From a virus, in the IMG/VR virus record IMGVR_UViG_3300034072_001496, positions 1 through 34,392 of that record: a DNA stretch of 34,392 nt; one strand, written 5' to 3'. The position numbers and the translations under genes are program-made. Positions within the stretch are counted from its first letter, which is position 1; each line of letters starts with the position of its first letter. Positions 13,178 to 33,969 of this stretch are shown here, one piece after another. The notes beneath the pieces are model-generated. The model worked only from the letters and a program-made list of their open reading frames with translations. It was not told the origin of the DNA and made no database searches.

Positions 13178-13255
13178 CTGGCCCGGATCAGGCGAAAAGG
13201 CAAGCGCGATGCTCGGGGCCGTCTCTCCTGGTCGGACTTCCACAGGAGACGAAAA

Positions 13256-13696: not shown

Positions 13697-13699
13697 ACC

Positions 13700-14663: not shown

Positions 14664-14676
14664 CGTCCTGTCCTTT

Positions 14677-14702: not shown

Positions 14703-14718
14703 ATAGGAGCTCCCAGCA

Positions 14719-14748: not shown

Positions 14749-14887
14749 CGAATGACCCCGAATTTCCCGATGGGCAGCCTGTCCATGCATGGTGGCGGGC
14801 TCCGGGGCACCCAAGTTGCGGACGGGGTGTCGATCGCGCTCTACGGGGCTCCTAGGGCGCTTTTCGTTTGGCCGCGTTCTGGACCCC

Positions 14888-16230: not shown

Positions 16231-16258
16231 ATCGAGACTCGACGTTCAGGATCACGAT

Positions 16259-18763: not shown

Positions 18764-18787
18764 CCCCAAGAACAGGAGGAAAGACCC

Positions 18788-19606: not shown

Positions 19607-20235
19607 ACTTCATCACGCCCCGGCTGCTCAACCCCCAGCGCGCGCCCGATCCTGCGGCGTGCCTCTGGAGCCACCTCCGCCACGCGGCTGAGCCGCTTTC
19701 CATCACCGACCTGGTGCGGCGCACCGACATCGATGTCGCGATCGTCGGGCGGCAGCTGCGCGCCTGGAAGAAGGACGGGTTGATCGTCTCGGTGGAACGA
19801 ACAGGACTTTTCAAAATGGCCAAGATTGCCGCCGCGCAGGACGCGCCGCCGACCATCCGTGACGCGAAGAAGCTGCCAGTCCGCTTCACGCCCAGGTCGA
19901 TGCGCCAGCGCATCTGGACAGCGATCCGGGTGCTGAAGACCTTCGATCTGCCGATGCTGCTGATCGCCGCCGAGGCGACCGAGAAGACGACTGTGGCCTA
20001 TCTCGCGCAGCTGGTGCGAGCGGGGTTCCTCGAGCGCCTCGACCAGCCCGGCGAACCGCACCGCCGCTACCGGATCGTTCTCGATACCGGGCCGCATCAT
20101 CCCTCGATCGGAAGGGCGACCATCAACGGCCAGCCCCACACCCGCCTGCTCGACCACAATTCCGGAGCAGAGCTGCACATGCCGATTGCCGCGCGCCGCA
20201 AGCCTGCCGCCCCTTTTTTTGACCAGGAGCGTTAA
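19603..20235 (+). CDS. Winged-helix regulator-like protein of unknown role
   Basis: 210 residues from the ATG in ATGA overlap with MuB. Two winged-helix-like segments are visible: residues ~18-70 (HAAEPLSITDLVRRTDIDV, then WKKDGLIVSVERTG) and ~100-150 (RIWTAIRVLKTFDLPMLLIAAEAT, then YLAQLVRAGFLERL). This is the pattern of small proteins that follow MuB in many Mu-like phages and presumably bind DNA. The C-terminal ~60 residues are Pro/Arg-rich. I cannot name targets. Confidence 0.72.
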   Translation: MNFITPRLLNPQRAPDPAACLWSHLRHAAEPLSITDLVRRTDIDVAIVGRQLRAWKKDGLIVSVERTGLFKMAKIAAAQDAPPTIRDAKKLPVRFTPRSMRQRIWTAIRVLKTFDLPMLLIAAEATEKTTVAYLAQLVRAGFLERLDQPGEPHRRYRIVLDTGPHHPSIGRATINGQPHTRLLDHNSGAELHMPIAARRKPAAPFFDQER

Positions 20236-20237
20236 CC

Positions 20238-20654
20238 ATGTCTGTTAAGGTTACCCTGACCAATATCGAGCGCGCGACCGCTGCCTGGGGCGAGGACATG
20301 CCTGCCTGGGTGCGCCTGCTCGCCGGTGCCGCCGACGCTACCAACCAGCGCAAGGCGGGCGAGAAGATCAACCGCAACGCCAGCTATGTCAGCCGGATCC
20401 TCAACCGTGATTATGCGGGCAGCTACGAGGAGGCCGAACGCTTGGTCCGCGCGGCCTGGGGCAACGAAGACGTCCTCTGCCCGATCTGGAACGACAGCAT
20501 CCCGCTTGCTTCCTGCATGAACAACCGCAGGCGGAAAGGTGCGCCGAAGAACACCTTCGAGCATCTCTACACCGTCAACTGCCCGCGCTGCCCGAACAAC
20601 ACCGACAGCCCGACCGAGGCGGTTGGCCAGGAGGCCGCGTCATGCGCCGCCTGA
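20238..20654 (+). CDS. Small HTH-like protein
   Basis: 138 residues. A segment near residues 40-65 (KAGEKINRNASYVSRILNRDY) has the shape of a helix-turn-helix recognition region, as in phage regulators of this type. A C-terminal CPRC with other cysteines nearby may bind a metal. AGGAG precedes the ATG by a proper distance. Its last 13 nt overlap the next small gene. Likely an early regulator; the family is not certain. Confidence 0.68.
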   Translation: MSVKVTLTNIERATAAWGEDMPAWVRLLAGAADATNQRKAGEKINRNASYVSRILNRDYAGSYEEAERLVRAAWGNEDVLCPIWNDSIPLASCMNNRRRKGAPKNTFEHLYTVNCPRCPNNTDSPTEAVGQEAASCAA

Positions 20655-20785
20655 CCGCCAAGATCGCCGAGCAGGGCTACAGCCCGCTGGGCTTCGTCCT
20701 GACGGTCATCCTGCCGACAGCGGCAGCGATCTTCCTTGGCACCGCGCTGATCGTGGTGACAGCACCTTCAGGAGTTTCATCATGA
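20642..20785 (+). CDS. 47-residue single-span membrane protein
   Basis: Found by reading the gap: ATG at 20642, stop TGA at 20783-20785, which overlaps the next ATG as ATGA. A basic N-terminus (MRRLTAKIAEQGYSPLG) is followed by a hydrophobic helix at ~17-40 (FVLTVILPTAAAIFLGTAL). Many Mu-like phages carry such tiny membrane proteins in the early operon; Kil-like toxicity is one possibility but there is no direct evidence. Confidence 0.6.
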   Translation: MRRLTAKIAEQGYSPLGFVLTVILPTAAAIFLGTALIVVTAPSGVSS

Positions 20786-21027
20786 TCGCGCAATATGCCC
20801 TTACACCTGTCGCGCAGGAGCTGCTCGTCGCGCTGAGCCAGACCACCGGGTTCGATATCTATTGCTTCAGCCAGGCAAATGCCGGGCGTGATCTCGAGCG
20901 GCAGGGGCTGGCGAGGATCGTGCGCGCCAAGGCACCGCCGCCTGGTTGGCAGCAGCAGCCGTATTTCGGGATCAAGATCAAGGCAGCAGGCCGCAAGCTA
21001 CTGAAGTCGGCGGAGGCAAGGCAATGA
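20782..21027 (+). CDS. Small early protein of unknown function
   Basis: 81 residues starting MIAQYALTPVAQELLVAL, with a short hydrophobic N-terminal half and a basic C-terminus (AGRKLLKSAEARQ). Both ends are in ATGA overlap with neighbours, and FGIKIKAAGRKLLKS looks like the C-terminal strand-helix of a small winged-helix domain. No family recognised. Confidence 0.62.
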   Translation: MIAQYALTPVAQELLVALSQTTGFDIYCFSQANAGRDLERQGLARIVRAKAPPPGWQQQPYFGIKIKAAGRKLLKSAEARQ

Positions 21028-21242
21028 CCGCGCCGATCTGCACCGACTATCGCGCCGTCCAGAGCGAGCGCGGTTACCTCGTCCTCTACCGCAGCACCGG
21101 CGACAATGTCTGCCCAGGCTGCGGCGGTCGCCAATGGGAGGTCGGTCGCACCATGGCCGAATGCGCCCTGTGCGGCACCGCCATCCCGCTCGTCTCGCCC
21201 GACATCCCGACACCCACCGACTTTGAGCCTGAAAGGAACTGA
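21024..21242 (+). CDS. Small zinc-ribbon protein
   Basis: 72 residues in ATGA overlap with the gene before. CPGC and CALC, about 16 residues apart, form a four-cysteine zinc ribbon. The rest (ICTDYRAVQSERGYLVLYR) is short. Such ribbons in early phage genes may bind nucleic acid or RNA polymerase; the role is unknown. It ends two bases before the Gam gene start. Confidence 0.65.
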   Translation: MTAPICTDYRAVQSERGYLVLYRSTGDNVCPGCGGRQWEVGRTMAECALCGTAIPLVSPDIPTPTDFEPERN

Positions 21243-21244
21243 CC

Positions 21245-21727
21245 ATGGCTGCTGCCCGCCGCAAGGCACCCACCCAAGTCGCCCCGCAGACGATCCAGGA
21301 AGCGACCGCGACCATCGACAAGTACATGGCCATGCAGGCCACCGTCGACCAGCTCAAGGCCGATGCCGATGCCTCGATCCAGCAGATCGAGGGCAAGCGC
21401 AAGTCGATCGAGCTTGCTGGCGCGATCATCGGCGAGCGAACCAACACGCCGTCGCTGAAACTGCCCAAGGGCGTGAAGCAGGAAGACTTCATCGAGAAGA
21501 TCCGCGCCGCGCTCGAGGCAAATGCCGAACCTTTCATCCGCACCAAGCTCGAGCTCGACAAGCAGGCGATCATCAAGACCCTGCGCAAGGGCGAGGACGA
21601 CCCCATGGCGGAGCGTCTCGCTGCCCTGGGCGCGGGCGTCTCCCAGGCCGATCAGTTCTTCATCGATCGCGCCGGCAAGCGTGAGGCCGATCCCGAGCTG
21701 GTCGATGTCGAGGGAGGTGCAGCATGA
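21245..21727 (+). CDS. gam: Gam-like host nuclease inhibitor
   Basis: 160 residues. Mu Gam is a Ku-like protein that binds double-stranded DNA ends and shields them from exonucleases. The match is clearest in PFIRTKLELDKQAIIKTL (~residues 96-113), which parallels FIRTKQEINKEAI in Mu Gam as I recall it, and in the N-terminal helix with Q-x-x-VDQLKADADASIQQIEG. The family segment between these, including the CEANR-like and V-x-WR motifs, is not evident, so this is a shortened or divergent form. AAGGAAC precedes the ATG. The C-terminus overlaps the next gene as ATGA. Confidence 0.8.
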   Translation: MAAARRKAPTQVAPQTIQEATATIDKYMAMQATVDQLKADADASIQQIEGKRKSIELAGAIIGERTNTPSLKLPKGVKQEDFIEKIRAALEANAEPFIRTKLELDKQAIIKTLRKGEDDPMAERLAALGAGVSQADQFFIDRAGKREADPELVDVEGGAA

Positions 21728-22029
21728 CCACCGCACCCGCCACTGGTGTCCCGATCAGCGTCGCCATCCGGCTGATGCGCGCGGCGATCGCTTCGGGCCC
21801 TGCTCAATCAATCTTCGATGAAAATGGCGATGAGGTGAAGAAGGCAGCAGGCATCGCGACCAAATATGTCAACGGCACGCCGATGATAATCCTGTCACTG
21901 GTCGAGGACGGCTCCCAGACCACGATGTGCATGGACTCCGACGCGATCGACCAGTTCTGCGACATGCTGGCGGATGCGGTGCGCTGGCACAATGCCGCCA
22001 TCACGCAGGCAACCGGGAGCGTCAACTGA
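21724..22029 (+). CDS. Small early protein of unknown function
   Basis: 101 residues starting in ATGA overlap with Gam. It has an N-terminal helix (VPISVAIRLMRAAIAS) and a mixed domain with TPMIILSLVEDGSQT and DSDAIDQFCDMLADAV. No family recognised. The stop overlaps the next start by one base (TGATG). Confidence 0.65.
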   Translation: MTTAPATGVPISVAIRLMRAAIASGPAQSIFDENGDEVKKAAGIATKYVNGTPMIILSLVEDGSQTTMCMDSDAIDQFCDMLADAVRWHNAAITQATGSVN

Positions 22030-22244
22030 TGTCGCGCCACAGCGCCAGCCTTCGCGAAGCCCAGGCTCTTGCTGCCCGTCTCGACCGCAGCGGCGACAAA
22101 CGCTCCGCTGAAATCATTCGGGCACTGATCCGCAGCTTCCAGGCCAGCCGCACAACGAACCAGATTTTGCACCAGGACAATCTCGAGCTTCGCGGCGCGG
22201 GCGTTTTGGCACCGCAATCTCGAAAGATGGATATCCGTCGATGA
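22029..22244 (+). CDS. Small basic early protein of unknown function
   Basis: 71 residues, basic and helical (ASLREAQALAARLDRSGDK, then IIRALIRSFQASR). It is coupled upstream by TGATG and downstream by ATGA. Possible DNA- or protein-binding accessory protein; no motif seen. Confidence 0.6.
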   Translation: MSRHSASLREAQALAARLDRSGDKRSAEIIRALIRSFQASRTTNQILHQDNLELRGAGVLAPQSRKMDIRR

Positions 22245-22552
22245 CAGAGAACCAACTACGAACGCTCGACAACATCAGGGCCTTTTACGACGCACATGGT
22301 CGCGGTCCTGGCATCCGCGAGCTCATGGCGATTGAAGGCCTCAAATCGACCTCGGGGATCCACACGAGGATCCAGACGCTTGTCAAATACGGGTATCTGC
22401 GCAAGCTCGACGATTACCATGGTCGCTATGTGCCCGTAGAGGCACCGGTGGAAATCGACCTGAGGCCATACCCGACTCAGGCACTCGAAATGGAGCTTCA
22501 GCGGCGCGGGAAGCTCGCTGCAGATGTCAAAGCTCAAGGTAGCTCGGCATGA
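22241..22552 (+). CDS. LexA-type winged-helix DNA-binding protein
   Basis: 103 residues. Residues 1-60 match the LexA N-terminal DNA-binding pattern: LRTLDNIRAFYDAHGRGPGIREL, then GIHTRIQTLVKYGYLRKL. There is no peptidase domain, so it cannot self-cleave. A second LexA-like reader beside the S24 repressor may tune early or middle transcription. Coupled on both sides by ATGA. Confidence 0.75.
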   Translation: MTENQLRTLDNIRAFYDAHGRGPGIRELMAIEGLKSTSGIHTRIQTLVKYGYLRKLDDYHGRYVPVEAPVEIDLRPYPTQALEMELQRRGKLAADVKAQGSSA

Positions 22553-23256
22553 CCGCCGCGTCCCGGCCCTCCCGCACGCGCCGCGCACCCGGTAGCGATC
22601 CGCGAACGCGCAAGATCCGCGCGATCATGGCCGCGTGCAATCGGCTCGGCCTGGACGAGGACGCTCGCCGCGATCGCATCGAGCAGGTAAGCGGCCAACG
22701 GTCGCTGTCCGGACTCAGCGATGGGCAGCTCGGCAAGCTGCTCGATGCGCTCAACGGCGGATGGAGGGCCGGACGCGCCGATCGTCCGCACCTGGGCAAG
22801 ATCAAGGCGCTTTGGTGGAGCCTCTATTGGCTGGGCGAGATCGACGAGCCGGGCGACGCGGCGCTGGACAGCTTCGTGAATCGCCAGACCGGCCTCGCGG
22901 CGCTCCGCTTTGTCGACCATCGGCACTCGGCCTCGGTGATCGAGGGGCTGAAGGCCTGGGCGGCGCGCGTCGGCGTCCATTGGCCATGCCCTGCGGACAT
23001 CCGCGCCATGGAGCTAACCATCCCCGATTATTCGCCCGCCCATGGCGAGCGGGTGGCCGTGATCGAGCGCCTGGCTGAGCTATGCGCCGACCGCGCCATG
23101 ATGTTCCCGATCGAGCTGGCGCGGCTCGAGATCGGATCGCGGGCGAACCTGCACCACTGGTCCGTGCGCGAGATGGACGACGCCATCCGATTCCTGGGCC
23201 GCAAGTGGCGCGCGAAGATGCCGCGTCGCGACCAGAAGCCCCAGGCGGAGGGCTGA
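22549..23256 (+). CDS. gemA: GemA / Mu gp16-like regulatory protein
   Basis: 235 residues. RKIRAIMAACNRLGLDEDARR and SGLSDGQLGKLLDALNG near the N-terminus are the gp16 (DUF1018) signature. The rest is helical with ALWWSLYWLGEIDEP, as in longer alphaproteobacterial forms (Mu gp16 is shorter). In Mu, GemA is reported to influence host gene expression and DNA supercoiling. It lies directly before the Mor-like activator, as in Mu. Confidence 0.88.
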   Translation: MTAASRPSRTRRAPGSDPRTRKIRAIMAACNRLGLDEDARRDRIEQVSGQRSLSGLSDGQLGKLLDALNGGWRAGRADRPHLGKIKALWWSLYWLGEIDEPGDAALDSFVNRQTGLAALRFVDHRHSASVIEGLKAWAARVGVHWPCPADIRAMELTIPDYSPAHGERVAVIERLAELCADRAMMFPIELARLEIGSRANLHHWSVREMDDAIRFLGRKWRAKMPRRDQKPQAEG

Positions 23257-23259
23257 TCG

Positions 23260-23760
23260 ATGTCGGTCGCCTATTTCCCTGGTATGCGGCTTGAGGATCT
23301 GCCGATCCCGCGCGATGTCGCGATGACCCGGCGGTGGCCCGCTCAGCTCGTCGAGATGGCGGACCATATCGGTGCCTATCACGCCATGCGCATCGTCGAA
23401 CGCTTTGGGGGGCAGCAAATCTATGTCTCGGCCGATCCGGAACGAAACTGCCTACGCGAGGTTCTGGACGCCAGGCTGACCCGCATCATGAGCCATGTCT
23501 ATGGCCGACAGGAGATCGAGGTTCCTGTCGCCAGGGCAGCGCTCATGGAGGCACGCCGCGCGCCGGTGATTGCATCCGTGCGAAATGGCGATATGACTGT
23601 CGCCGAAGCAGCCCGGATCCTCGGCACCGCCAGGACCTATGTTTCGCAGCTTGTGAACCGGAGCCGGGAGGCTGAAGTCGCACAGCCTTTGCGCCGCCCG
23701 AGCCTGCGCGACCCTCGCCAGATCGAGATGTTCGAACCCTGGGATGGCAAGCCCCTGTGA
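23260..23760 (+). CDS. mor: Mor-like activator of late transcription
   Basis: 166 residues. GAYHAMRIVERFGGQQIYVS (residues 38-57) is the Mor/C family dimerisation-strand region with the conserved GG-x-x-IYV. A C-terminal helix-turn-helix follows at ~113-135 (TVAEAARILGTARTYVSQLVN). Mor binds a dyad centred near -43 of Mu Pm and recruits RNA polymerase. Here the stop codon lies within a perfect palindrome (23757-23770) repeated at the head of the left arm, suggesting it drives both arms. GGAGGG precedes the ATG. Only one Mor/C-type gene was found, so this protein may replace Mu's two-step Mor then C scheme (inference). Confidence 0.85.
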   Translation: MSVAYFPGMRLEDLPIPRDVAMTRRWPAQLVEMADHIGAYHAMRIVERFGGQQIYVSADPERNCLREVLDARLTRIMSHVYGRQEIEVPVARAALMEARRAPVIASVRNGDMTVAEAARILGTARTYVSQLVNRSREAEVAQPLRRPSLRDPRQIEMFEPWDGKPL

Positions 23761-23770
23761 GCTGGCTCAC
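23757..23770. promoter_or_regulatory. Perfect 14-bp palindrome, probable late activator site (right arm)
   Basis: GTGAGCTGGCTCAC, identical to 13134-13147; 16 bp in common including flanks. It begins inside the activator's stop codon and lies upstream of the right late arm. Both copies are followed 4-6 bp later by GTCGC. A -10 at the Mor spacing would be 23795-23800 (TTAGCA, weak). Confidence 0.7.
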
Positions 23771-23802
23771 CCCAAGTCGCGCGAGCTATCCCGCTTAGCA
23801 GT

Positions 23803-23825
23803 GCCTCATCGTTTTTCGATGAGGC
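23803..23825. promoter_or_regulatory. Perfect hairpin GCCTCATCG-T5-CGATGAGGC
   Basis: A 9-bp perfect stem with a 5-T loop between the activator gene and the first right-arm gene. There is no T-run after it on either strand, so it is a doubtful intrinsic terminator. It could be a second operator or a leader hairpin. Confidence 0.5.
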
Positions 23826-23832
23826 CCATCCA

Positions 23833-23889
23833 ATGCATTCCGCAATTCTCGCCAGCGCACAATCCGAATGCTGGAGCGTGCAGTCGTGA
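23833..23889 (+). CDS. 18-residue possible leader ORF
   Basis: ATG at 23833 (peptide MHSAILASAQSECWSVQS), ending TGA in GTGA overlap with the chosen start of the next gene. GAGG from the preceding hairpin lies about 8-11 nt upstream. It may couple translation into the late operon. Very short, so tentative. Confidence 0.3.
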   Translation: MHSAILASAQSECWSVQS

Positions 23890-24266
23890 GCTGGTGGCAG
23901 ATCATCCAGACCCTTTGGCCGATCGCCGCCACGATGACGCCACTGATCCTGCTGGGCGGCTTCGCTTGGCTGCAGACCAAATTCCCATCGCGCGCGGACC
24001 TGAAGGAACATGAAACCGAGCTCAGGGACCTCACCGATCAGGTTTCAGGCCTCGTCACGCGCATCACGACCAACGAGAACCGCATCGACAATGTGGTTCG
24101 CGATCTCGAGAGGGAGCCGACCCGGGCAAGCCTCGCCAACTCCATCTCCGACATTCGCGACCGGCTCGGCTCGGTGGAATCGTCCGTCAGGGCGATGCAA
24201 CACCAGCTCGAAACACAGAACGACTATTTGCACACGCTGGTCCAGCAAGGACTCGGCAAATCATGA
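23886..24266 (+). CDS. Mu gp25-like (DUF2730-like) membrane and coiled-coil protein
   Basis: 126 residues from GTG at 23886, chosen for GGAG at 23873 and the GTGA overlap; an ATG at 23868 would add six residues but has no Shine-Dalgarno. One membrane helix near the N-terminus (TLWPIAATMTPLILLGGFAWL) is followed by a long coiled coil (ELRDLTDQVSGLVTRITTN). That layout is typical of DUF2730/gp25-type proteins that open the late operon ahead of gp26 and gp27 in Mu-like phages. Function unknown; a role in lysis timing or packaging is only a guess. Confidence 0.75.
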   Translation: MSWWQIIQTLWPIAATMTPLILLGGFAWLQTKFPSRADLKEHETELRDLTDQVSGLVTRITTNENRIDNVVRDLEREPTRASLANSISDIRDRLGSVESSVRAMQHQLETQNDYLHTLVQQGLGKS

Positions 24267-24553
24267 TCGCGCCCGCCATCCGTCCGCTGGTGCGCCGCGC
24301 CATTATCGATCTGCTGGCCGAGATCGGCGGCGAGCATAATGATCACCACCTCGCCACGCTGCTGGCCGAGGTCGGACACCGCGTCGCGCGGCGCGACGTT
24401 GCCGAAGAGCTGCGCTGGCTGGCCAACGAGGGCTTTGTCCGGGTCGAGGAGGTGCCGCGTTACCTGCTCGCCGAGATCCTTCCCGACGGCGAGGATGTCG
24501 CGGCCAGCCGCCTGATCGTCGACGGCATCTACCGCCACAGAACAGGCCGCTGA
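24263..24553 (+). CDS. Mu gp26-like small winged-helix protein
   Basis: 96 residues. RRAIIDLLAEIGGEHNDHHLATLL and RDVAEELRWLANEGFVRVEE have the shape of a winged helix. Its place between gp25-like and gp27-like genes matches Mu gp26-type proteins. It starts in ATGA overlap. Probably DNA-binding; packaging involvement is inferred from position. Confidence 0.72.
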   Translation: MIAPAIRPLVRRAIIDLLAEIGGEHNDHHLATLLAEVGHRVARRDVAEELRWLANEGFVRVEEVPRYLLAEILPDGEDVAASRLIVDGIYRHRTGR

Positions 24554-24554
24554 C

Positions 24555-25088
24555 ATGGCCCGCTGGTCTTCCGTCGAGGAACTGCCGGCAGACGTCCAGG
24601 ACGAGCTGGACGAGGCCGTGAAACGCAAGTTCACCACCGATGCACTGGTCGAGCTGGCCGCCAGCCACGGCCACCAGATCGCGCGATCGTCGATGGGCCG
24701 ATGGGCCAAGCGCCGCCGCGACTGGCACCGGGTGGTGGAGCGCGAAAAGGCCGTGCGCGGTATGGCCGAAGTCGTCGACAGCGAGTTCGGCGATGAGAAC
24801 GAAAAACGCAACCGGATGCTGCTGCATCTGGCGCGCAACAACCTCTCGATCATCGCGGCGCGCATGGGCGGCGAGGAAAAGCTCGAGCTGGGCGACGCCA
24901 TGGGCCTCATCAAGGCGCTGAAGGACCTCGTCGTCGCCGACAAGCTCGATGCCGAGCGCGAGCGTGCCATCCGCCTCGAACAGAACCAGCGCGCCGCCAA
25001 GGAAGCCGAGGGCGAGCTGCGCAGCCGTGGTGCCACCGAAGAAACCATCCTGGCCGTGAAGACCAAGCTGCTCGGCCTCAAAGCCTGA
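24555..25088 (+). CDS. gp27-like (DUF3486) protein, probable small terminase
   Basis: 177 residues. An N-terminal HTH region ([26 protein letters not shown], then [20 protein letters not shown]) is followed by helices for oligomerisation ([20 protein letters not shown]). This is the DUF3486/Mu gp27 pattern; these proteins are taken as small terminase subunits that recognise phage ends before packaging. In Mu it directly precedes gp28; here three extra genes separate it from the large terminase. Confidence 0.85.
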
Positions 25089-25101
25089 AGGGAGAAAGAC
25101 C

Positions 25102-25344
25102 GTGAGTGAAGCTATCAGCGCCGACGATCAGCTCCGCCTGTTCATCGAACGCATCGAGCGGCTCGAGGAAGAGCGTAAGGGCGTCGCCGACGATATCCGC
25201 GACACCTACAACGAGGCGAAGGCGCAGGGTTACGACGCCAAGATCATGCGCCAGATCGTCCAGCTGCGCCGGATGGAGCCGCATGATCGGCAGGAAATGG
25301 CTGCGATCCTGGACACCTACAAGGCCGCACTGGGCCTGGGATGA
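25102..25344 (+). CDS. GapR-like (DUF2312) nucleoid-associated protein
   Basis: 80 residues from a GTG start with GGGAG upstream. It is nearly all the GapR/DUF2312 domain: [19 protein letters not shown], then [22 protein letters not shown], then [15 protein letters not shown]. GapR is an essential alphaproteobacterial protein that clamps over-twisted AT-rich DNA and helps replication. Lying between small and large terminase genes, the phage copy might manage DNA topology during replicative transposition or packaging. It also ties the phage to an alphaproteobacterial host. Next gene overlaps as ATGA. Confidence 0.85.
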
Positions 25345-25679
25345 CTGTTCTGTTCGGTCCCTTTCTGAATCAGCTCGAAGGCGGGTTCATGGCGCGCTGT
25401 CCCGGCTGCAGCGAGGTGCATTACATTGCGGTAAGCAAGCCTCTGGCGAATGGCGCGGCGTGGTCTTTCAATGGCAACGCCGATGCGCCGACGTTTGCAC
25501 CAAGTTTGCTGATCCGGACAGGCCGAGCCGTCGACCCCAACTTCGTGCGCGAAGAGGGTGATCCACCTGACGTCTGCCATAGCTTTATCCGTAATGGCCG
25601 GTGGGAGTTCTGCGGCGACAGCACTCATCATCTCGCCGGTCAAACCGTGCCCATGCTCCCATGGAGTGAGGATGCATGA
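25341..25679 (+). CDS. DUF6527-like small metal-binding protein
   Basis: 112 residues. CPGC-x-x-VH near residue 20, [16 protein letters not shown] near 42-57 and [15 protein letters not shown] followed by [11 protein letters not shown] near the end are the pattern I associate with DUF6527, phage or prophage proteins with conserved Cys/His likely to bind zinc. Function is not known to me. It lies inside the packaging module and overlaps both neighbours as ATGA. Confidence 0.7.
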
Positions 25680-26095
25680 ACGAACCACACCGCATCGTTG
25701 CTGGCCTGAGCGCGAACGGACCCGGCGACATAGCCTCGCTGGCGTTCGCGATCGCACAGGACGCCAAGCCCTTCGGCTTTCGCGTCCTGTCGATCAAATC
25801 CTCGCGCGCGGTCAAGGCGGCAAATGCGGCTCGGGGCTCGCGCACCAAATATGTGCACTTGGCCGACAAGCTTGAGCGATGCTGGATCATCCGGGTGTCG
25901 GACCATTATCGGCCCCGCCGCGCAGTTCGTCACCCATTGCACTTTGACCTGGTCGCGCTCGATGGCAAGTCGGGCCAGGCCGACGTCCGCGAATGGCTGG
26001 CATCGGTTGCCAGGGGCGAAGTCGCCTGGGTGCAGCCCATTATTTCGCAGAACGTCCGCAAGTCGCGCCAGCGCTGGAAAGGTCGCCGGCAATGA
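25676..26095 (+). CDS. Unknown protein before the large terminase
   Basis: 139 residues, basic, with an alpha/beta N-terminal half (RIVAGLSANGPGDIASLAFAI, then FRVLSIKSSRAVKAANAARG) and an RRAVRHPLHFDLVALDG segment. The C-terminus is strongly basic (RKSRQRWKGRRQ) and could bind DNA. It is joined by ATGA to genes on both sides. I do not recognise a family. Confidence 0.65.
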   Translation: MNEPHRIVAGLSANGPGDIASLAFAIAQDAKPFGFRVLSIKSSRAVKAANAARGSRTKYVHLADKLERCWIIRVSDHYRPRRAVRHPLHFDLVALDGKSGQADVREWLASVARGEVAWVQPIISQNVRKSRQRWKGRRQ

Positions 26096-27651
26096 GCGCC
26101 AAGGTCGGCTCGCTCGCGCCGCTGGATGATCTGCCCTCGCTGCTGATGCCGTATCAGGTCGAGGCGATCCAGCTCAGCGCCGAAAACCAGCTGTTCGTGA
26201 GCGAGAAATCGCGCCGAACCGGCCTGACCTATGCGTTCGCAGCCGATGCGGTCCTGACGGCTGCGCCTGCTCAGGGCGGGCAAGATTTCTTCTACATCGC
26301 CTACAACAAGGACATGACCCGCGAGTTCATCGGCTATTGCGCCGAGTTCCTGCAGGCCTTCGACCAGCTGGCGGTCGAGCCGAAGGAATTCCTGCACAAC
26401 GATGGCTCGGATGAAGGCATCAACGCCTTCAGGATCGATCTACCCTCCGGCCACAAAATCGTCGCGCTGTCGTCCAAGCCGCGATCACTGCGCGGTATGC
26501 AGGGCAAGGTGCTGATCGATGAAGCGGCCTTCCATGACCAATTCCAGGACCTGCTCGACGCGGCGATGGCGCTCACGATGTGGGGCGGCAGCGTCGTCGT
26601 CATCTCCACGCACAATGGCGCGGACAATGCTTATAACGAGCTGATCGAGGATATCCGCAGCGGCAAGCGCGAAGGCGTCGTCCAGCGGGTGACCCTCAAG
26701 GATGCGCTGCGCCAGGGCCTGTTCCAGCGCATCTGCCTGCGCACCGGCCAGAAATGGTCGCCCGAGGCCGAGGCGGCCTGGGAAGCATCGCTTCGCAAGC
26801 GCTATGGCGCTGCTGCCGAGCAGGAACTGGACGTCATCCCGTCGCGCGGCTCGGGCATCTATCTTGCCCGTGCCACGATCGAGCTGGCCATGTCGCACGA
26901 GCTGCCGGTCATCCGCCTGGCTTGCCCGGATGGCTTCGAGCGCCATGACGATGAATATCGCACCAGCTGGATCACCGAGTTCCTGGAGCGCGAGGTTGCG
27001 CCCTGGCTGCTGGATTTCGCCCCGAACCGCCCGACCTATTTCGGCCAGGACTTCGCCCGCAACGGCGACGTCTCGCCGGTCGTTTTCGGCCAGCGCGATG
27101 AAAGCATGCGCCGCGTCGCCCGCTTCCTGCTCGAGATGCGCAACGTGCCCTTCAAGGACCAGGAGCTGATCCTGAACTGGATCATCTCGCGCGTGCCGAT
27201 GTTCGCCTGCGGCAAGATGGATGCGCGCGGCAACGGCTCGGCTCTGGCCGAGGCGATGCAGCAGCGCTGGGGCTTTGACCGCGTCGAGGCCGTCCAGACC
27301 TCCGAAAAGACCTATCTCGCCTTCATGCCGAAGCTGCGCGCGGCGATCGAGGATCGGATGCTGCTCATCCCCTGGGACGAGGGCGTGATGGACGATCTGC
27401 GCATGATCAAGCTCGTGCGCGGCATCCCGATGATTCCGGATCGCGGCAAGGTCAGCAAAGCCGACGGCGATAGCGGCAAGCGCCACGGCGACGACGCGAT
27501 CGCGCTGATGCACTTCGTCGCCGCGTCCGACGAGAATATCGGCCCGATGGAGTTCTATTCGGCGGGCCAGCGCAGCACCCAGATGGCCCCAGGGCCTGTC
27601 TCCTCGCGCGGGTTCGGCACTGCCGGTCGCCGCGCCGGATTTGTGAGGTAA
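26092..27651 (+). CDS. Large terminase (Mu gp28-like)
   Basis: 519 residues from the ATG at 26092 (ATGA overlap). The ATPase half has a divergent Walker A in SEKSRRTGLT (37-46), Walker B VLIDEAAF (140-147, Asp143-Glu144) and coupling motif VVISTHNG (169-176). The nuclease half has GQDFARNGDVSP and GKRHGDDAIALM with the expected acidic residues. This is the gp28 type that packages Mu-like DNA by headful, carrying flanking host DNA. Length and order (terminase, then portal) are normal. Confidence 0.92.
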   Translation: MSAKVGSLAPLDDLPSLLMPYQVEAIQLSAENQLFVSEKSRRTGLTYAFAADAVLTAAPAQGGQDFFYIAYNKDMTREFIGYCAEFLQAFDQLAVEPKEFLHNDGSDEGINAFRIDLPSGHKIVALSSKPRSLRGMQGKVLIDEAAFHDQFQDLLDAAMALTMWGGSVVVISTHNGADNAYNELIEDIRSGKREGVVQRVTLKDALRQGLFQRICLRTGQKWSPEAEAAWEASLRKRYGAAAEQELDVIPSRGSGIYLARATIELAMSHELPVIRLACPDGFERHDDEYRTSWITEFLEREVAPWLLDFAPNRPTYFGQDFARNGDVSPVVFGQRDESMRRVARFLLEMRNVPFKDQELILNWIISRVPMFACGKMDARGNGSALAEAMQQRWGFDRVEAVQTSEKTYLAFMPKLRAAIEDRMLLIPWDEGVMDDLRMIKLVRGIPMIPDRGKVSKADGDSGKRHGDDAIALMHFVAASDENIGPMEFYSAGQRSTQMAPGPVSSRGFGTAGRRAGFVR

Positions 27652-27656
27652 CGACC

Positions 27657-29732
27657 ATGGCCCGCAGGCCCAGACCATTTTCCGCCAGCACCACCCGCGC
27701 GATCGCCCGGCGCACCAGCGAGCCGACGGGGACGATGCAGGCGCTAATGCGCCCGATCGCGACGACCGCCGACGGCCGCGATATCACGCGGCCCTTTACC
27801 GCCGGGCTTCAGCAGCCGCGTGACCCGCGCATCAGCATGGCGATCGACTGGGGCGTCTACGACGTCATCCTGGAAGATGATCAGGTCATGTCGACGCTGC
27901 AGCAGCGCATTGGCGGTGTCGTCTCGCGGAACTGGAACGTGCTGCCAGGCGATGAGGACGATCCGCGCTCGGTCGAGGCGGCAGAGAAGCTCAACGACAA
28001 CCTGTTGCGCCTGGGCTGGGACCGCGTCACGCGCAAGATGCTGTTCGCCACCTTCTACGGCTATTCGGTCGCGGAATGCCTGTGGGAGGTCCGCGATGGC
28101 CTGTTCCAGTTCGCCGATCTGCGCGTCCGCCATGCCCGCCGCTTTCGCTATGACGATGCCGGCAATCTGCGCCTGATAACCCGCGTCAACTGGAACGGCG
28201 AGCTGCTGCCCGATCGCAAGTTCTGGGTGGCGACCGCTGGCGCCAGCGACGACGACGAGATCTACGGGCGCGGCCTGGCCGAGTGGCTCTATTGGCCGAC
28301 GCTGTTCAAGCGCAATGGCCTGCGCTTCTGGAACAACTTCCTCGACAAGTTCGGCGCTCCGACCGCTATCGGCAAATATCCTGCCGGCACGCCGCAGAAC
28401 CAGGTCAACAAGCTGCTCGCCGCGCTGCAGGCGATCCAGACCGATACCGGCATCGCGATCCCCGACCGCATGGTCATCGAGCTGCTGCAGGTCGCCAAAA
28501 GCGGCGTGGCCGATTACGAGCAGCTCTGCCGCTACATGGACGAGTGCATCGCCAAGGTGGTGCTCAGCCAGACCATGACCACCCAGGACGGCTCCTCGCT
28601 CAGCCAGGCGCAGGTGCATGCCGGCGTGAAGCTCGAGGTGGTGAAGTCCGACGCGGATCTGCTGTCGGATAGCTTCAACTCAGGCCCGGCGCGGTGGTGG
28701 ACCGATTTCAATTACGGCCCCGATGTCGCTTCGCCGCGCGTTGTGCGCGATGTTGAGGAGGAAACCGACTCCAAGCTCGCTGCCGAAACCGACACCATCC
28801 TGAAGGGCCTGGGCTGGGAGCGCGATGAGGAGAGCTTCCAGGACACCTATGGCGATGGCTATGTCCGCGTGCAGCAGGCCTCGTCGTCGGAGGCGGACCT
28901 TGTTCCCGACGTCGGGGAAAAGGTCGGCGAGCAGCTGCTGATCGAGGACAATCGCCGCGAGCCGCTCCAGCCCGTCACCGAGTTCGCCGCAGACGATCCG
29001 CGCCCGCTCTACGTCCATCGCAAGCTACTCAATGCCGAAAAGCTCGTTGCATGGGCAAGGAAACAGGGCTTCAAAACCGTTGTCGATCCTGCCGAAATGC
29101 ATGTCACCGTGGCCTATTCGAAGAAGCCGGTGAACTGGTTCGGCATGGGCGACGATTTCGGCTTCTACCGTGAGCCGTTGCGCGTCATGCCGGGTGGCCC
29201 GCGCGTCGTCGATCGCTTGGGCAACCAGGGCGCGGTGGTGCTGCATTTCTGGGACGGCTATCTCGCCAACCGCCACCGGACCATGCGGGAGGCAGGCACG
29301 AGCTGGGATTTCCCGACCTATCTGCCTCACGTCACCTTCACCTATGATCCTGGCGAGGTCGATCTGGCCGAGGTCGAGCCGTTCACCGGTGAGCTGCTGT
29401 TCGGCCCGGAGATATTCGAGCCGATCGACGACGATTGGGCCAGCGGCATCCGAAGCGTCGACCTGGCCGAGGGCGATCCCGATTATGTCGAGCAGACGCC
29501 CGAAAATGCCCTGATCGACGAACTGATCGCTGCCGAGGACGACCGCGTCAGCGCGGCGATGACCGGTTCGATCTTCAGCCGCATCGCCGCCGCCGCAACC
29601 GCCGAGGAGCTGCTCAAGCTGCTCGACACCGAGGCAACCGCGCTGATGAACGACGCGCCGCTCCGCGAGAGCATCGAGCGCGCCGCATTCGCCCTTCGCC
29701 TGGCCGAAGAGAACCGGGAGGGCGCGGGATGA
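27657..29732 (+). CDS. Portal protein (Mu gp29/DUF935) carrying an Acb1-like anti-CBASS domain
   Basis: 691 residues, about 150 longer than a usual gp29 portal. Residues ~30-430 are the portal: GLQQPRDPRISMAIDWG, VYDVILEDDQVMSTLQQR, FGAPTAIGKYPAG, LSQTMTTQDG. Residues ~448-592 are a separate domain with two HxT motifs, His482-Val-Thr484 (MHVTVAYSK) and His558-Val-Thr560 (LPHVTFTYD), plus LYVHRKLLNAEKLVAWA at its start and GELLFGPEIFEPI at its end. This is the 2H phosphoesterase pattern of Acb1, which cuts the cyclic nucleotides that activate CBASS defence. The last ~75 residues return to gp29-like C-terminal helices, so the domain appears inserted. Both HxT motifs are intact, suggesting activity. 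Whether the domain acts fused, after cleavage, or from the virion is unknown. Confidence 0.9.
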   Translation: MARRPRPFSASTTRAIARRTSEPTGTMQALMRPIATTADGRDITRPFTAGLQQPRDPRISMAIDWGVYDVILEDDQVMSTLQQRIGGVVSRNWNVLPGDEDDPRSVEAAEKLNDNLLRLGWDRVTRKMLFATFYGYSVAECLWEVRDGLFQFADLRVRHARRFRYDDAGNLRLITRVNWNGELLPDRKFWVATAGASDDDEIYGRGLAEWLYWPTLFKRNGLRFWNNFLDKFGAPTAIGKYPAGTPQNQVNKLLAALQAIQTDTGIAIPDRMVIELLQVAKSGVADYEQLCRYMDECIAKVVLSQTMTTQDGSSLSQAQVHAGVKLEVVKSDADLLSDSFNSGPARWWTDFNYGPDVASPRVVRDVEEETDSKLAAETDTILKGLGWERDEESFQDTYGDGYVRVQQASSSEADLVPDVGEKVGEQLLIEDNRREPLQPVTEFAADDPRPLYVHRKLLNAEKLVAWARKQGFKTVVDPAEMHVTVAYSKKPVNWFGMGDDFGFYREPLRVMPGGPRVVDRLGNQGAVVLHFWDGYLANRHRTMREAGTSWDFPTYLPHVTFTYDPGEVDLAEVEPFTGELLFGPEIFEPIDDDWASGIRSVDLAEGDPDYVEQTPENALIDELIAAEDDRVSAAMTGSIFSRIAAAATAEELLKLLDTEATALMNDAPLRESIERAAFALRLAEENREGAG

Positions 29733-29941
29733 GCCTCACACCCCGAGAAGCGCGAATACTCGAGCTATGGGATACGGGTCTGTCGATATCGCAGATTTCC
29801 GAGCGGCTCTCGTGCCGCAAGAAGGTTGTCGAGAACACCGTCTCCTACTTCAGCGGCAGATCGGACCAGCGCCTGGCTGAGAAGAGCATCCGGGAAGGAT
29901 CGCAGAAGCTCGCAGCTGCGCTCAGCGAGGCGCGACAATGA
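29729..29941 (+). CDS. Small LuxR/sigma-4-like HTH protein
   Basis: 70 residues in ATGA overlap with the portal gene. LTPREARILELWDTGLSISQISE then VVENTVSYFSGR is a LuxR-type or GcrA-like helix-turn-helix. A small DNA-binding regulator; target unknown. Confidence 0.7.
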   Translation: MSLTPREARILELWDTGLSISQISERLSCRKKVVENTVSYFSGRSDQRLAEKSIREGSQKLAAALSEARQ

Positions 29942-30204
29942 CCCGCGCGACCCAGCCACAGATTGCTTACGCACTCGGAATGGTTGAAGCTTTGTCGCGG
30001 CAATTGCCCGCGATCAGCGTCATCTATTCTGTGCAGATGCAGCTCGGCGATGGCTGGGCCAAGCACGGCGACGAAGCCTTCACCTTCCGCCTTGCTGGCA
30101 TCTCCGCCACCTGTGAGCCAACGCACCCGGATGCACCCTCCGAAGCCCTGCGAAACTGGCAACGGGCCGCGCGTGAGCGGCTTGGATGGGAGTACGTGTC
30201 ATGA
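29938..30204 (+). CDS. Small protein of unknown function
   Basis: 88 residues, mixed alpha/beta (TQPQIAYALGMVEALSRQL, then DEAFTFRLAGISATCEP), ATGA-coupled at both ends. No family recognised. Part of the inserted block between portal and MuF. Confidence 0.6.
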   Translation: MTRATQPQIAYALGMVEALSRQLPAISVIYSVQMQLGDGWAKHGDEAFTFRLAGISATCEPTHPDAPSEALRNWQRAARERLGWEYVS

Positions 30205-30542
30205 CGGTGAGTTTACCCGCAGGCGACTATGCGATTGTCGAGGTTCTTGGCCACCGGACCATTGTCGGTCGGGTTGAGGAGGTCGAGCGGTTCGGGACCA
30301 AACTGATGTCGATCGAGCCACTTTACCAGGGCCAACTGCTGCCCGCCGTACTGATCGGTGGCAGCTCAATTTACCAGTTCACACCATGCACTGCAGAAGT
30401 GGCCGCTTTGCGGCAACCGAAGAACGACTGGCAGTTAGCGCCATCCATCCGCGCGGCGCTCCCGCCCGAGATGCTTCCCGCGCCAGAGCCCGATCAAATC
30501 GAGGAAGCGGAGTTCGAGCCAGAGTTCCTGAGTGATGAGTAA
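30201..30542 (+). CDS. Small acidic protein of unknown function
   Basis: 113 residues from the ATG at 30201 in ATGA overlap. The first half is beta-rich (LPAGDYAIVEVLGHRTIVGRV, then SIYQFTPCTAEVAALR), like a small barrel. The C-terminal tail is very acidic (EEAEFEPEFLSDE). Similar small proteins accompany methylase or parB-like genes in phages, but I cannot name it. It overlaps the methylase start by 8 nt. Confidence 0.6.
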   Translation: MTVSLPAGDYAIVEVLGHRTIVGRVEEVERFGTKLMSIEPLYQGQLLPAVLIGGSSIYQFTPCTAEVAALRQPKNDWQLAPSIRAALPPEMLPAPEPDQIEEAEFEPEFLSDE

Positions 30543-31110
30543 CAGCCCCTTCGCGCATCTCCCGATGTTCGGCTTCGATATCATCTATGCCGACCCGCCC
30601 TGGAGCTTCGACAACTGGTCGGAAAAGGGCGAGGATCGCAATCCCAACCAGCATTACGACACCATGGGCTGGGAGGAGATCGCCGCGCTACCTGTGGGCG
30701 AGCTGGCCAGCCGCGACTGCGCCTGCTTTCTGTGGGCCATTGATCCGCTGCTCGACAAAGCCTTCGAAACCCTGCGCCGCTGGGGCTTTCGCTATGCGAC
30801 TGTCGCTTTCACCTGGGTAAAGCTCAACCCGTCGGGCCAAGGCTATGCCATGGGCACCGGCTATTACACCCGCGCCAACCCGGAAATCTGCCTGCTGGGC
30901 ATGACCGGAAGCATGCCCCGCCTGGACGCCGGCGTTCGCCAGCTAGTCGTCGAGCCGCGCCGCGAACACAGCCGCAAGCCCGATCGCATCGCCGACGACA
31001 TCGTCCGCCTGTTCGGCGACCGCCCGCGCATCGAGCTGTTCGCCAGGACGAAGCGGCCTGGCTGGGCAGCGTGGGGCAATCAGGTCGAGAAGTTTGGAGA
31101 CGAGAGATGA
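30535..31110 (+). CDS. MT-A70-family N6-adenine DNA methyltransferase
   Basis: 191 residues from ATG 30535 (a GTG at 30532 is possible). The catalytic DPPW is at 20-23 (IIYADPPWSF). MT-A70 signatures follow: CFLWAIDPLLDKAFETLRRWGF, TVAFTWVKLN, the MGTGYYTRANPEICLLG region and EPRREHSRKPD. Product would methylate adenine in phage DNA, protecting it from host restriction. Target site cannot be read from sequence. It sits in the middle of the morphogenesis genes, so it is expressed late, before packaging. The next gene overlaps as ATGA. Confidence 0.9.
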   Translation: MSNSPFAHLPMFGFDIIYADPPWSFDNWSEKGEDRNPNQHYDTMGWEEIAALPVGELASRDCACFLWAIDPLLDKAFETLRRWGFRYATVAFTWVKLNPSGQGYAMGTGYYTRANPEICLLGMTGSMPRLDAGVRQLVVEPRREHSRKPDRIADDIVRLFGDRPRIELFARTKRPGWAAWGNQVEKFGDER

Positions 31111-31355
31111 GCGCCTCAGAGAAGGCAAAACAGACCCTGCTCAGCATTGAAATTCCGAGGGATGAGCTGGCATTCAGGATCGCGCAGAAGTGTATCGGCG
31201 CAACTGCGCCGATTGGCGCCAACGCCACCCAAGCACTGGACGAGATGAATAAAATGGGAGGCGTTCTTCCGATGGGGGAAAGCTTCCGGCGTGCAGCGGA
31301 TGCTGCTGTCATCTACCTGCATGAATGCTTGAACGCAGGACGGCAACCGTCATGA
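31107..31355 (+). CDS. Small protein of unknown function
   Basis: 82 residues (MSASEKAKQTLLSIEIPRD, then IYLHECLNAGRQPS), helical, coupled by ATGA to the methylase before and the gene after. No family recognised. Confidence 0.58.
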   Translation: MSASEKAKQTLLSIEIPRDELAFRIAQKCIGATAPIGANATQALDEMNKMGGVLPMGESFRRAADAAVIYLHECLNAGRQPS

Positions 31356-31630
31356 GCTTCATCCACTGGGGGCCGGAAGACACCGTTCTCAAGAAGTACA
31401 GCGCCAGCACGACCAGCGGCCCACGCGGGAAGACTGTCATCCGGATCGAGCTTGAAACCTCCGATTCCTATGCGCTGGCAAGCCTTCTGCAGAGCTTGGC
31501 GGAGATCGAAAGTGAGCAACACCGAGCGAAGGAAAGGGCGAAAGCACCGTCAAAAAAGGCCAAGGCTATGCTGGCATTGCCAGCGCCTCAGTTGCAGCTG
31601 ACGGATGGGCGGAACCCCTTTGATGCCTGA
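31352..31630 (+). CDS. Small basic protein of unknown function
   Basis: 92 residues. An N-terminal beta segment (GPRGKTVIRIELETSDSY) is followed by a helical, lysine-rich stretch (EQHRAKERAKAPSKKAKA). It is ATGA-coupled upstream and overlaps the MuF start by 8 nt. No family recognised. Confidence 0.58.
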   Translation: MSFIHWGPEDTVLKKYSASTTSGPRGKTVIRIELETSDSYALASLLQSLAEIESEQHRAKERAKAPSKKAKAMLALPAPQLQLTDGRNPFDA

Positions 31631-32837
31631 GCTTCGCCCAACCATGTATCTCAGCCCGGAAAATACTGTCCGGGTCTGGCAGGAGCGGCAGGATCTGCGC
31701 CCGACCGTGCGCTGGTCGGAGATGATGCACGAGGAGCATTCTCGCGCCTTCACTGTGGCCAAGATCGCCAAGCTCGATCTACTCGCCTCGGTCCAGAAAT
31801 CGCTCGACAAGGTGATCCGCGATGGCGGCACGTTCGAAACCTGGAAGGCGAACATCCTGCCGGAGCTGAAGCGGGCAGGCTGGTGGGGCGAGGTCTCCGA
31901 CCCGGCAATCACAGGCACCGACCAGACCATCATCGTAAATGATCGCCGTCTCCGCACGATCTACCGGACCAACATCCGGATGAGCATCGCCGCAGGCCGC
32001 TGGCGGCGATTTCAGGCACAGAAGGAACTGTTCCCATATCTCCGCTACCGATCGGATCATCCGCGCAAGAAGCCTCGCCAGGACCATCTGAGCTGGCACG
32101 GCATCATCCTGCCGGTCGATCACCCCTGGTGGCAGGAGCATTTCCCGCCCAATGGCTGGGGCTGCAATTGCCTTCCAGAGCAGGTCTCCGATGGCATGCT
32201 GAAGCGGCGCGGATGGAAGGTGACGACCGATCTCCCGCCAACTGGGCGTGAGCGCTTCTATCCTGCCGGCAGAACCGATCCGATCATGGTGCCCAAGGGC
32301 ATCGATCCGGGCTTCAGCTACAATCCTGGCACCGCGCATCTGCGTGCGATCGCTGACAAGGCACTCGAATCGGTCGAGGATGCTGCCCAGGCAGGCCTGA
32401 CAAATGCCGCGCAGCAGACCATCCGCGAGATCGTCGCGGATCCTGCGTTTGACCAGTTTGCGGCCTTGCCTGATCAGCCTTTTCCGATCGCCGCGCTCAC
32501 GGCTGATCAGGCGGCTGCAGTCGGCGCAACTGTCCGAACGGTGAGGTTCTCGCCGCAGACGCTCGAAAAGCAGAAGCGCCGCCATGCCGAGCTCACGATC
32601 GCGGATTATCGCCTGCTGCCGGAGATCATCAGCAACCCTGCTTACGCACTGCGCGAGGACGATCGCAGGGTCCGGTTGCTGTGGGAATCGGATGGTCAAT
32701 GGTGGCGGGCCACCGTTAAGGCAACCGAGCAAGGCGACGAGCTCTACGTGCTGAGCATGCATCGCCTTCGGATAGATGACGTCTCGTCGCTTGTGGCCCG
32801 ATTTGCAGCGATCTTGGAGTGGTTCGGTGCGCGGTAA
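31623..32837 (+). CDS. MuF-like head protein with C-terminal PBECR-like nuclease domain
   Basis: 404 residues from ATG 31623. Residues ~60-200 are the MuF minor head domain: NDRRLRTIYRTNIRMSIAAGR, HPRKKPRQDHLSWHG, HPWWQEHFPPNGWGCNC. MuF proteins enter the head and can be injected with DNA. Residues ~306-385 form a second domain, RFSPQTLEKQKRRHAEL, then YRLLPEIISNPAYAL, RRVRLLWESDGQWWRATVK, ELYVLSMHRL. This matches my memory of the PBECR (Barnase-EndoU-ColicinE5/D-RelE-like) RNase group found at MuF C-termini. The likely effect is cleavage of host RNA, possibly in the injected cell. No immunity gene is obvious beside it. Last gene of the packed late operon. Confidence 0.85.
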   Translation: MPELRPTMYLSPENTVRVWQERQDLRPTVRWSEMMHEEHSRAFTVAKIAKLDLLASVQKSLDKVIRDGGTFETWKANILPELKRAGWWGEVSDPAITGTDQTIIVNDRRLRTIYRTNIRMSIAAGRWRRFQAQKELFPYLRYRSDHPRKKPRQDHLSWHGIILPVDHPWWQEHFPPNGWGCNCLPEQVSDGMLKRRGWKVTTDLPPTGRERFYPAGRTDPIMVPKGIDPGFSYNPGTAHLRAIADKALESVEDAAQAGLTNAAQQTIREIVADPAFDQFAALPDQPFPIAALTADQAAAVGATVRTVRFSPQTLEKQKRRHAELTIADYRLLPEIISNPAYALREDDRRVRLLWESDGQWWRATVKATEQGDELYVLSMHRLRIDDVSSLVARFAAILEWFGAR

Positions 32838-33011
32838 GGACTGCCGATTCCCTTACACGCGCTCCGGGCTTGTGGCCCGTGCTACGGCAGGCAGGATCAC
32901 CGTGTTTCGCGCACCGGACACCCACATACACCTGGCCAGCTTAACGATCAATGACGCGAGGCTTCACATGCCCTGCAACACAGTTTCCAGCGCCCTGCAG
33001 GGGCGGGGGAA

Positions 33012-33029
33012 AAGGCGCGCCAACGCCTT
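33012..33029 (-). terminator. Inverted repeat in the MuF-Dam gap
   Basis: AAGGCG (33012-33017), loop CGCCAA, CGCCTT (33024-33029). Read on the minus strand the stem is followed by TTTTCCCC, a weak intrinsic terminator for leftward transcripts. The rest of the 286-bp gap (32838-33123) shows no gene, tRNA or clear promoter. It holds a CCCTGCAGGG palindrome at 32994-33003. Confidence 0.35.
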
Positions 33030-33123
33030 AAGCCGACGGATACGACCCGCCATGACCGACCTGGTCCATAACCCGGTCATCCCGCCACTCGCATGCAAGC
33101 GGGTGGAACATAATAGGAACATC

Positions 33124-33969
33124 ATGCAAGAGTCGAGTCCCGAATCCGCTCAGGTCCAAGGCCTGGCGCGGGTGCAGCCCGTCCATCCTCCCGCTGCCTA
33201 TATCGGTGGCAAGCGCCTGCTGGCCAAGCGCATCGTGGCGCGCATCAGCGCCACGCCGCATACCGGATATGCCGAACCGTTTGTCGGCATGGGAGGCATC
33301 TTCCTCCGCCGCGACATGCGCCCGAGCGCCGAGTTCATCAACGACTGGTCGATGGACGTCGCGACGTTCTTCCGAATCCTCCAGCGCCACTATGTCGCCT
33401 TCATGGACATGCTGCGCTTCCAGCTCACGACCCGCGCTGGGTTCGAACGGCTCGCGGCCACCGATCCGTCCACGCTTACCGACCTCGAGCGCGCGGCGCG
33501 CTTCCTCTATCTCCAGCGGCTCACGTTCGGCGGGAAGGTCGCCAGCCGCACCTTTGGCGTCGATCGCAACACCCCGGCCAGGTTCGACGTGACCAAGCTC
33601 GGCAGCATCCTCGAGGCGATCCATGAGCGGCTGTCATCAGTCGTCATCGAGCGTCTGCCCTGGGCGGATTTCATCTGCCGCTATGACCGGCCTGGCATGC
33701 TGTTCTACCTCGACCCGCCATACTTCGGTTGCGAGAACGACTATGGCCAGGACGGCACTGGCGCGCCGCTCTTCGATCGCTCACAATTCACGAAAATGAA
33801 TACCCTACTGGGGCAGATCAAAGGCCGGTTCATCCTCAGCCTCAATGACACCCCCGAGGTCCGATCGATCTTTGGGGGCTTCACGATCGAGGACGCGGCG
33901 ACGGCCTATTCGGTCGGCGGAGGCGATCGCCAGAAGCCGGTCAACGAGCTGATCATCACCGAGCCATAA
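33124..33969 (+). CDS. Dam-type (D12 class) N6-adenine DNA methyltransferase
   Basis: 281 residues from ATG 33124, chosen because AGGA lies 6 nt upstream; a start at 33052 would add 24 residues of no evident family character. Motif I is EPFVGMGG (51-58), the SAM-binding site, with IGGKRLLAKRI before it. The catalytic DPPY is at 197-200 (LFYLDPPYFG). ND in FINDWSMDV is the usual second motif. Product methylates adenine, often at GATC in this class. It is separated from the late operon by 286 bp and so may be transcribed separately. Together with the MT-A70 enzyme it gives the phage two adenine methylases. Confidence 0.9.
   Translation: MQESSPESAQVQGLARVQPVHPPAAYIGGKRLLAKRIVARISATPHTGYAEPFVGMGGIFLRRDMRPSAEFINDWSMDVATFFRILQRHYVAFMDMLRFQLTTRAGFERLAATDPSTLTDLERAARFLYLQRLTFGGKVASRTFGVDRNTPARFDVTKLGSILEAIHERLSSVVIERLPWADFICRYDRPGMLFYLDPPYFGCENDYGQDGTGAPLFDRSQFTKMNTLLGQIKGRFILSLNDTPEVRSIFGGFTIEDAATAYSVGGGDRQKPVNELIITEP

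Follow-up and report, generated by a model that had tools for sequence, protein, structure and literature searches.

Acb1 is known from T4 and FBB1 (gene 57B; structures 7t26 and 7t27; profile PF23474), and in T4 it is a separate protein of 152 residues. It also occurs joined to a portal protein in Pam3 (8hds) and in other portals of the PF06381 family (Phage_portal_3, formerly DUF1073), where it forms the C-terminal end of the protein, followed by next to nothing. The portal family to which the protein described here belongs by sequence, DUF935, includes gp29 of Mu and gp32 of JBD30 (9khx, 9knu, 8rka), which are without Acb1 and whose C-terminal part is unmodelled in virions: PDB entries include 369–383 of 512 residues for the Mu portal and 405 of 526 for that of JBD30. 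In the Mu virion, the cryo-EM portal is without its last 124 residues, a loss that the authors attributed to protease I (PMC11915804).

Proteolysis of this kind has precedents. The T4 protease gp21 cleaves after L/I-x-E (PMC9026906), while gp245 of SPN3US cleaves after AxE and counts the portal among its substrates (PMC10052503). T4 IPI (PMC9026906) and P1 DarA (PMC12810830) further illustrate that counter-defence proteins can be carried in the head and leave it with the DNA after the prohead protease has trimmed them. These, however, are separate proteins with terminal propeptides that act on restriction; neither is excised from a portal or known to target cyclic nucleotides. Acb1 and portals are not new in themselves, nor is the fusion of the two in a different portal family. 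A literature search of incomplete coverage returned no report of a portal–Acb1 fusion, and none of the DUF935 arrangement, the cassette polymorphism or the protease-motif match that we describe below.

The window, by which we mean the whole stretch of 34,392 nucleotides that was analyzed, is an IMG/VR virus record whose gene content is that of a Mu-like transposable temperate phage, including a transposase (16937–18763) and a CI-type repressor (15529–16230); its probable hosts are Sphingomonas-type bacteria. Head genes are divided between two blocks. The minus-strand block (2615–16624) holds the protease, a scaffold-like protein, the major head protein and the tail genes, while the plus-strand block (16937–33969) holds a gp27-like small terminase, the large terminase subunit (25993–27651; PF03237, E 7.8e-9), the portal and a MuF-type minor head protein (31605–32837; PF04233, E 1.2e-13). 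Mu differs in this respect, since its head genes are not split over two strands as they are here. The head maturation protease-scaffold protein (12076–13095, minus strand; phrog_976, E 6.7e-85) was identified via PHROG and a protein search; the profile of the Mu-like protease, PF10123, gave nothing above cut-off. Genes for MT-A70 and D12-class DNA methyltransferases also lie among the head genes (30532–31107 and 32776–33966), where they probably serve anti-restriction.

The portal gene (27657–29732, plus strand) follows the terminase and lies near the MuF gene, a position that fits a portal of Mu/B3 type. The gene is one unbroken frame, as the original prediction had it, and its 691 codons encode a complete portal core, an Acb1-like domain and gp29-like C-terminal helices. 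The core (PF06074, Portal_Mu or DUF935; residues 67–399, 27855–28853) matches profile positions 3–335 of 336 with E 2.2e-100. A variable linker (residues 400–442, 28854–28982), modeled with low confidence and with pLDDT below 50 from residue 407, leads to the motif FAADD (residues 443–447, 28983–28997). The Acb1 domain follows (residues 450–596, 29004–29444), then the motif LAEGD (residues 603–607, 29463–29477), in place of which most relatives have SFAE, and finally a helical tail (29490–29729). Both motifs are candidate maturation-protease sites. Because portals that carry no Acb1, among them those of B3 and phiSHP3, have a homologous tail, Acb1 is best described as a domain insertion: a cassette inside an essential structural protein, where T4 has a free-standing enzyme. 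The span originally given to the domain, 28998–29432 (residues 448–592), stops just short of W594 and of the second motif. A fragment cut at both motifs would run for about 160 residues, from N-terminal of the strand bearing Y452 to just past W594. The AlphaFold model of the full-length portal is of low confidence (mean pLDDT 49) and was not used to place the domain. Mu produces its scaffold Z from gene I through an internal translation start. A separate Acb1 product made in the same manner was considered and rejected, as none of 11 genes checked offered a start codon with a Shine-Dalgarno-like site before Acb1.

Some 20 different viral contigs share this portal–Acb1 arrangement, as do several bacterial genomes, so that it does not reflect chance; among the latter, DUF935 fusions occur chiefly in Sphingomonadaceae, with one Thermomonas MAG in addition. 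Nor is fusion peculiar to the window phage, an idea rejected both on this distribution and on the presence of Acb1 in the Pam3 portal sequence (8hds). A thinned tree set, drawn mostly from viral contigs, comprised 20 distinct portals of the DUF935 type, in which Acb1 is internal, and 36 of the PF06381-like type, likewise distinct, in which it is C-terminal; the statement in the original prediction that the DUF1073 class also has Acb1-like domains is thus correct. Two further Acb1-bearing portals, again with the domain at the C-terminus, are of the HK97 type PF04860 (L078, 3223–4941; L095, 2704–4488), bringing to three the portal families in which the fusion was found: DUF935, PF06381 and PF04860. 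In the tree of Acb1 domains the DUF935 type changes label at least twice, but the AU test does not reject a single clade, and with it one origin of the fusion (p 0.22).

Within the DUF935 family, Acb1 is an optional in-frame cassette. It is present, always in the same place, in 27 of the 74 complete portals from a scan that favored this portal type, and close relatives differ in having it: L172 has it and L175 does not, at 88% identity elsewhere, and the same holds for L183 and L173, respectively, at 86% identity. The insertion point, identical in alignment with the portals of B3, YPCBV-1, phiSHP3 and Suso, falls directly 5' of the tail motif SFAE, and the cassette brings its own upstream copy, SFAADDPRPLY.

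Short motifs bracket the cassette. In counts that were dereplicated rather than phylogenetically independent, [FL]A[AE] precedes Acb1 by no more than 16 residues in 23 of the 24 distinct fused DUF935 portals (0.6 expected from shuffling), and follows it by no more than 45 in all 24 (3.3 expected), even though the linkers on either side vary in length and sequence. Of 47 portals without Acb1, 32 have FA[AED] in their tail, where 8 are expected. Other portals use other motifs. The PF06381 junction with Acb1 seldom shows FA[EA] but bears an LxDA-type motif (LxDAAPRPLYV) in 25 of 36 portals (1.2 expected), as does that of Pam3 (AVTDATPRPLYM); Mu and JBD30 have AALSA and VAALA, respectively. For the HK97-type portal of L078, we applied the HK97 delta-domain cleavage rule and read the junction as AEAK/SSTPRSLY, which resembles AEAK/ALSITPDAAGG, the sequence at which the major capsid protein of this phage is expected to lose its delta domain.

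In both the DUF935 and the PF06381 class, the junction motif recurs in the phages' own proteases. The protease-scaffold protein of the window carries SLAEGG at residue 142, DFAER at 185, SFAED at 221, SFAEL at 282 and NFAAPP at 299; the window major head protein contains none. The portal thus shares a repeated motif with its own protease-scaffold protein, as a substrate of the maturation protease would. Since the motif was first noticed in portals and only then tested in proteases, the protease test is the stronger of the two. After residue 130, FA[EA] appears 33 times in ten dereplicated proteases from phages with fused DUF935 portals (4.2 expected), yet only 5 times in 23 proteases from PF06381 phages (3.4 expected). 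The converse holds for [LIFMV]xDA, with 119 occurrences in the 23 PF06381-phage proteases (25.9 expected) and 5 in the DUF935 set (6.1 expected). One and the same Acb1 domain is thus joined through a junction that differs by portal class and is matched to the protease of that class.

The match extends beyond Acb1-bearing phages, although it is uneven. Portal and scaffold have in common AALSAE in Mu, EFAEGD in B3 and FNEPT in Pasteurella phage AFS-2018a. Across seven diverse phages, own-pair matching of portal and protease was better than mispairing with 6-residue words (16 of 5040 permutations), and the test was weaker with 7-residue words (311 of 5040). In JBD30, which was held out, RVAALAT in the portal agrees by eye with the threefold IAALT of the scaffold, albeit not as the top-scoring word. 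Two phages fit poorly: the fused portal of L065 has both motifs, but its protease has a single FA[EA] (p 0.55), and the protease of YPCBV-1 likewise has one.

We propose that the optional Acb1 cassette is bracketed by recognition motifs of the phage's own protease and excised in the prohead, a reading that we regard as more likely than not. The portal precursor would enter the procapsid with its C-terminal side, and Acb1 with it, towards the lumen. There the maturation protease would cut at FAA/DD before Acb1 and LAE/GD after it, as it would wherever this motif recurs in its own scaffold portion, freeing a protein of about 160 residues, the size of T4 Acb1, in up to 12 copies per particle. The scissile bonds are placed by analogy with T4 L/I-x-E and SPN3US AxE, whose form, hydrophobic-x-acidic or small, the motifs here share. 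Cleavage and release into the lumen are likely. The position of the missing segment in Mu is consistent with this: the 124 residues absent from the virion model (PMC11915804) lie in the corresponding region, and AALSA, about 85 residues from the portal C-terminus, lies within them. Likewise, the listed Foldseek hits of the Acb1 model do not include 8hds despite a clear sequence relation, which fits cleavage; disorder, or a library without 8hds, would give the same picture.

The most serious competitor is that Acb1 remains tethered to the portal of the mature virion, or works late in infection from unassembled portal alone, with the motifs serving as flexible linkers. This draws support from the fusion being in one frame, with neither a frameshift nor an internal start, and from the low-confidence, probably unstructured stretches that AlphaFold places on both sides of the domain. 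Flexible linkers, however, would not account for a motif that is nearly invariant while the linkers around it vary, that matches the motif of the phage's own protease-scaffold, and that switches with the protease class; the corresponding tail of Mu is gone from the virion model, and an enzyme on the luminal side would have no access to signals in the cytoplasm. We consider tethering unlikely on these grounds. The original prediction of up to a dodecamer of the enzyme at the portal vertex is not supported as stated, because the domain is bracketed by motifs resembling the sites of the phage's own head-maturation protease and so is more likely to be cut free.

The motif might alternatively be a scaffold-binding or capsid-targeting tag that recruits cargo into the head without freeing it. 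Capsid-targeting sequences of T4 demonstrate that short motifs can direct cargo to the capsid (PMC9026906), and the presence of the motif in portals that lack Acb1 is as expected of such a tag. Nevertheless, a tag would not need a second copy beyond Acb1, the P3-x-P1 pattern of the motif, F/L-x-E/A, resembles the gp21 and SPN3US sites, and the AALSA of Mu falls within the stretch missing from the virion model, so that this explanation strikes us as improbable. The motif could instead mark a recombination point.

The cassette encodes an intact Acb1 with a full active site. The PF23474 profile scores 129.4 bits against a cut-off of 27 (E 1.1e-37), the best sequence matches of known structure are 8hds, the portal of Pam3 (E 5.7e-23), and Acb1 7t26, and the domain as modeled by AlphaFold2 (pLDDT 85.8) has the predicted 2H phosphoesterase fold, with 7t26 as its top Foldseek match in the PDB (E 4.5e-9, TM 0.73); 7t26 and 7t27 together are the best matches, followed by other 2H phosphoesterases. 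Chance resemblance of the HVT triplets, which lie exactly at residues 482–484 and 558–560 as originally predicted, is rejected by the profile and fold matches. By alignment, H482-V-T484 (29100–29108) corresponds to H44/T46 of T4 Acb1 and H558-V-T560 (29328–29336) to H113/T115, while Y452 is the equivalent of Y12. The segment EPIDDDW (29418–29438) aligns with EPLKLDW of T4, such that E588 and W594 match the adenine-contacting E141 and the lid residue W147, roles defined for the T4 enzyme (PMC9117128). The likeness to T4 and FBB1 Acb1 therefore spans the fold, the HxT/HxT tetrad, Y12, an aromatic residue at F107 and the E141/W147 pair. Across 91 Acb1 domains aligned to T4 Acb1, Y12, T46, H113 and T115 are present in every one, H44 in 89 and E141 in 86; the F107 position is aromatic, and the full catalytic tetrad is retained in 89. 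The column aligned with the base-stacking W74 is mostly E or D in this group, in a region where the alignment is uncertain. Activity on CBASS signals is very likely.

It is improbable that the domain is a 2H phosphoesterase with a different target, such as RNA 2',3' ends or some other signal built on adenine nucleotides, of the Thoeris or type III CRISPR kind, instead of an anti-CBASS enzyme. Members of the wider superfamily with such activities (LigT, AKAP18) do appear in the Foldseek list, PHROG 755, which matches this same Acb1 domain, is named RNA ligase, and CD-NTases are uncommon in the host family: among 200 host-family genomes, SMODS nucleotidyltransferases score above cut-off in 21 and AGS_C in 5. 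Potential CBASS targets thus exist in the host family, if sparingly; a sample of 10 genomes with Acb1 loci, not all of DUF935 type, was too small to speak to CBASS in lysogens. Against another target stand an Acb1-specific profile far over its cut-off, best fold matches that are themselves Acb1 crystal structures, and retention of the base-contacting glutamate and lid tryptophan in an EPxxxDW context. A decayed, non-functional passenger is very unlikely: the first catalytic histidine is gone in two relatives, but 89 of 91 domains keep the whole tetrad, and mean dN/dS among six close relatives comes to 0.080 in Acb1 as compared with 0.076 in the essential portal core, a parity indicating that the domain is kept by selection. 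The two exceptions are the portal of L006 (a contig shared with L025 and L043), where the first HVT is NVT in an otherwise intact Acb1 domain, and L151, where tyrosine replaces that histidine.

Acb1 also turns up in other phage proteins. Three giant proteins of 1,164 to 1,552 codons contain it (L010, 3779–8434; L011, 3137–7462; L012, 3785–7276, incomplete at the contig end), with NUDIX beside it, as tested with Pfam for L010 and L011. Further domains are an ADP-ribosyltransferase in L011 and, in L010, a weak match to HipA; the proteins have the look of virion effectors with several enzymes in one chain. In L068 (4417–5403), as we read the sequence, Acb1 forms the N-terminus of an XkdF-type prohead-protease-like protein, with a junction, LLAKGK, similar to the LAK[SA] repeated in the following scaffold-like gene. 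Both settings would fit packaging. A gene of Ruegeria phage V10 named "prohead protease" (MH015255.1; L159, 2995–3447) is, by tblastn similarity, merely a stand-alone-sized Acb1 of 150 codons, and was not counted as a fusion. Separately, the DUF935 portal frame of L239 (2300–5323), 1,008 codons long, has a 610-residue tail with no Pfam match past the portal, possibly another cargo or a fused neighbor gene.

Part of the released Acb1 may exit with the DNA and destroy the adenine-containing cyclic di- and trinucleotide signals of CBASS from the first minutes of infection, while surplus portal would also supply Acb1 activity late in infection. By analogy with ejected head proteins, co-ejection is plausible, though we hold it with noticeably less conviction than cleavage, and twelve copies per virion may be few. 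It is a comparably tentative suggestion that Acb1 serves as protease-excisable portal cargo in at least two portal families, injected to disarm CBASS before phage genes are expressed.

If CBASS responds early, a DNA-borne enzyme would explain how a phage whose Acb1 is expressed late is nevertheless protected. Were the proposal true, the portal tail would constitute a cargo slot for counter-defence enzymes, and a domain bracketed by the motif of a phage's own protease would become a rule for finding such cargo. The co-variation of motifs between portal and protease, for its part, predicts the maturation cleavage sites of Mu-like phages.
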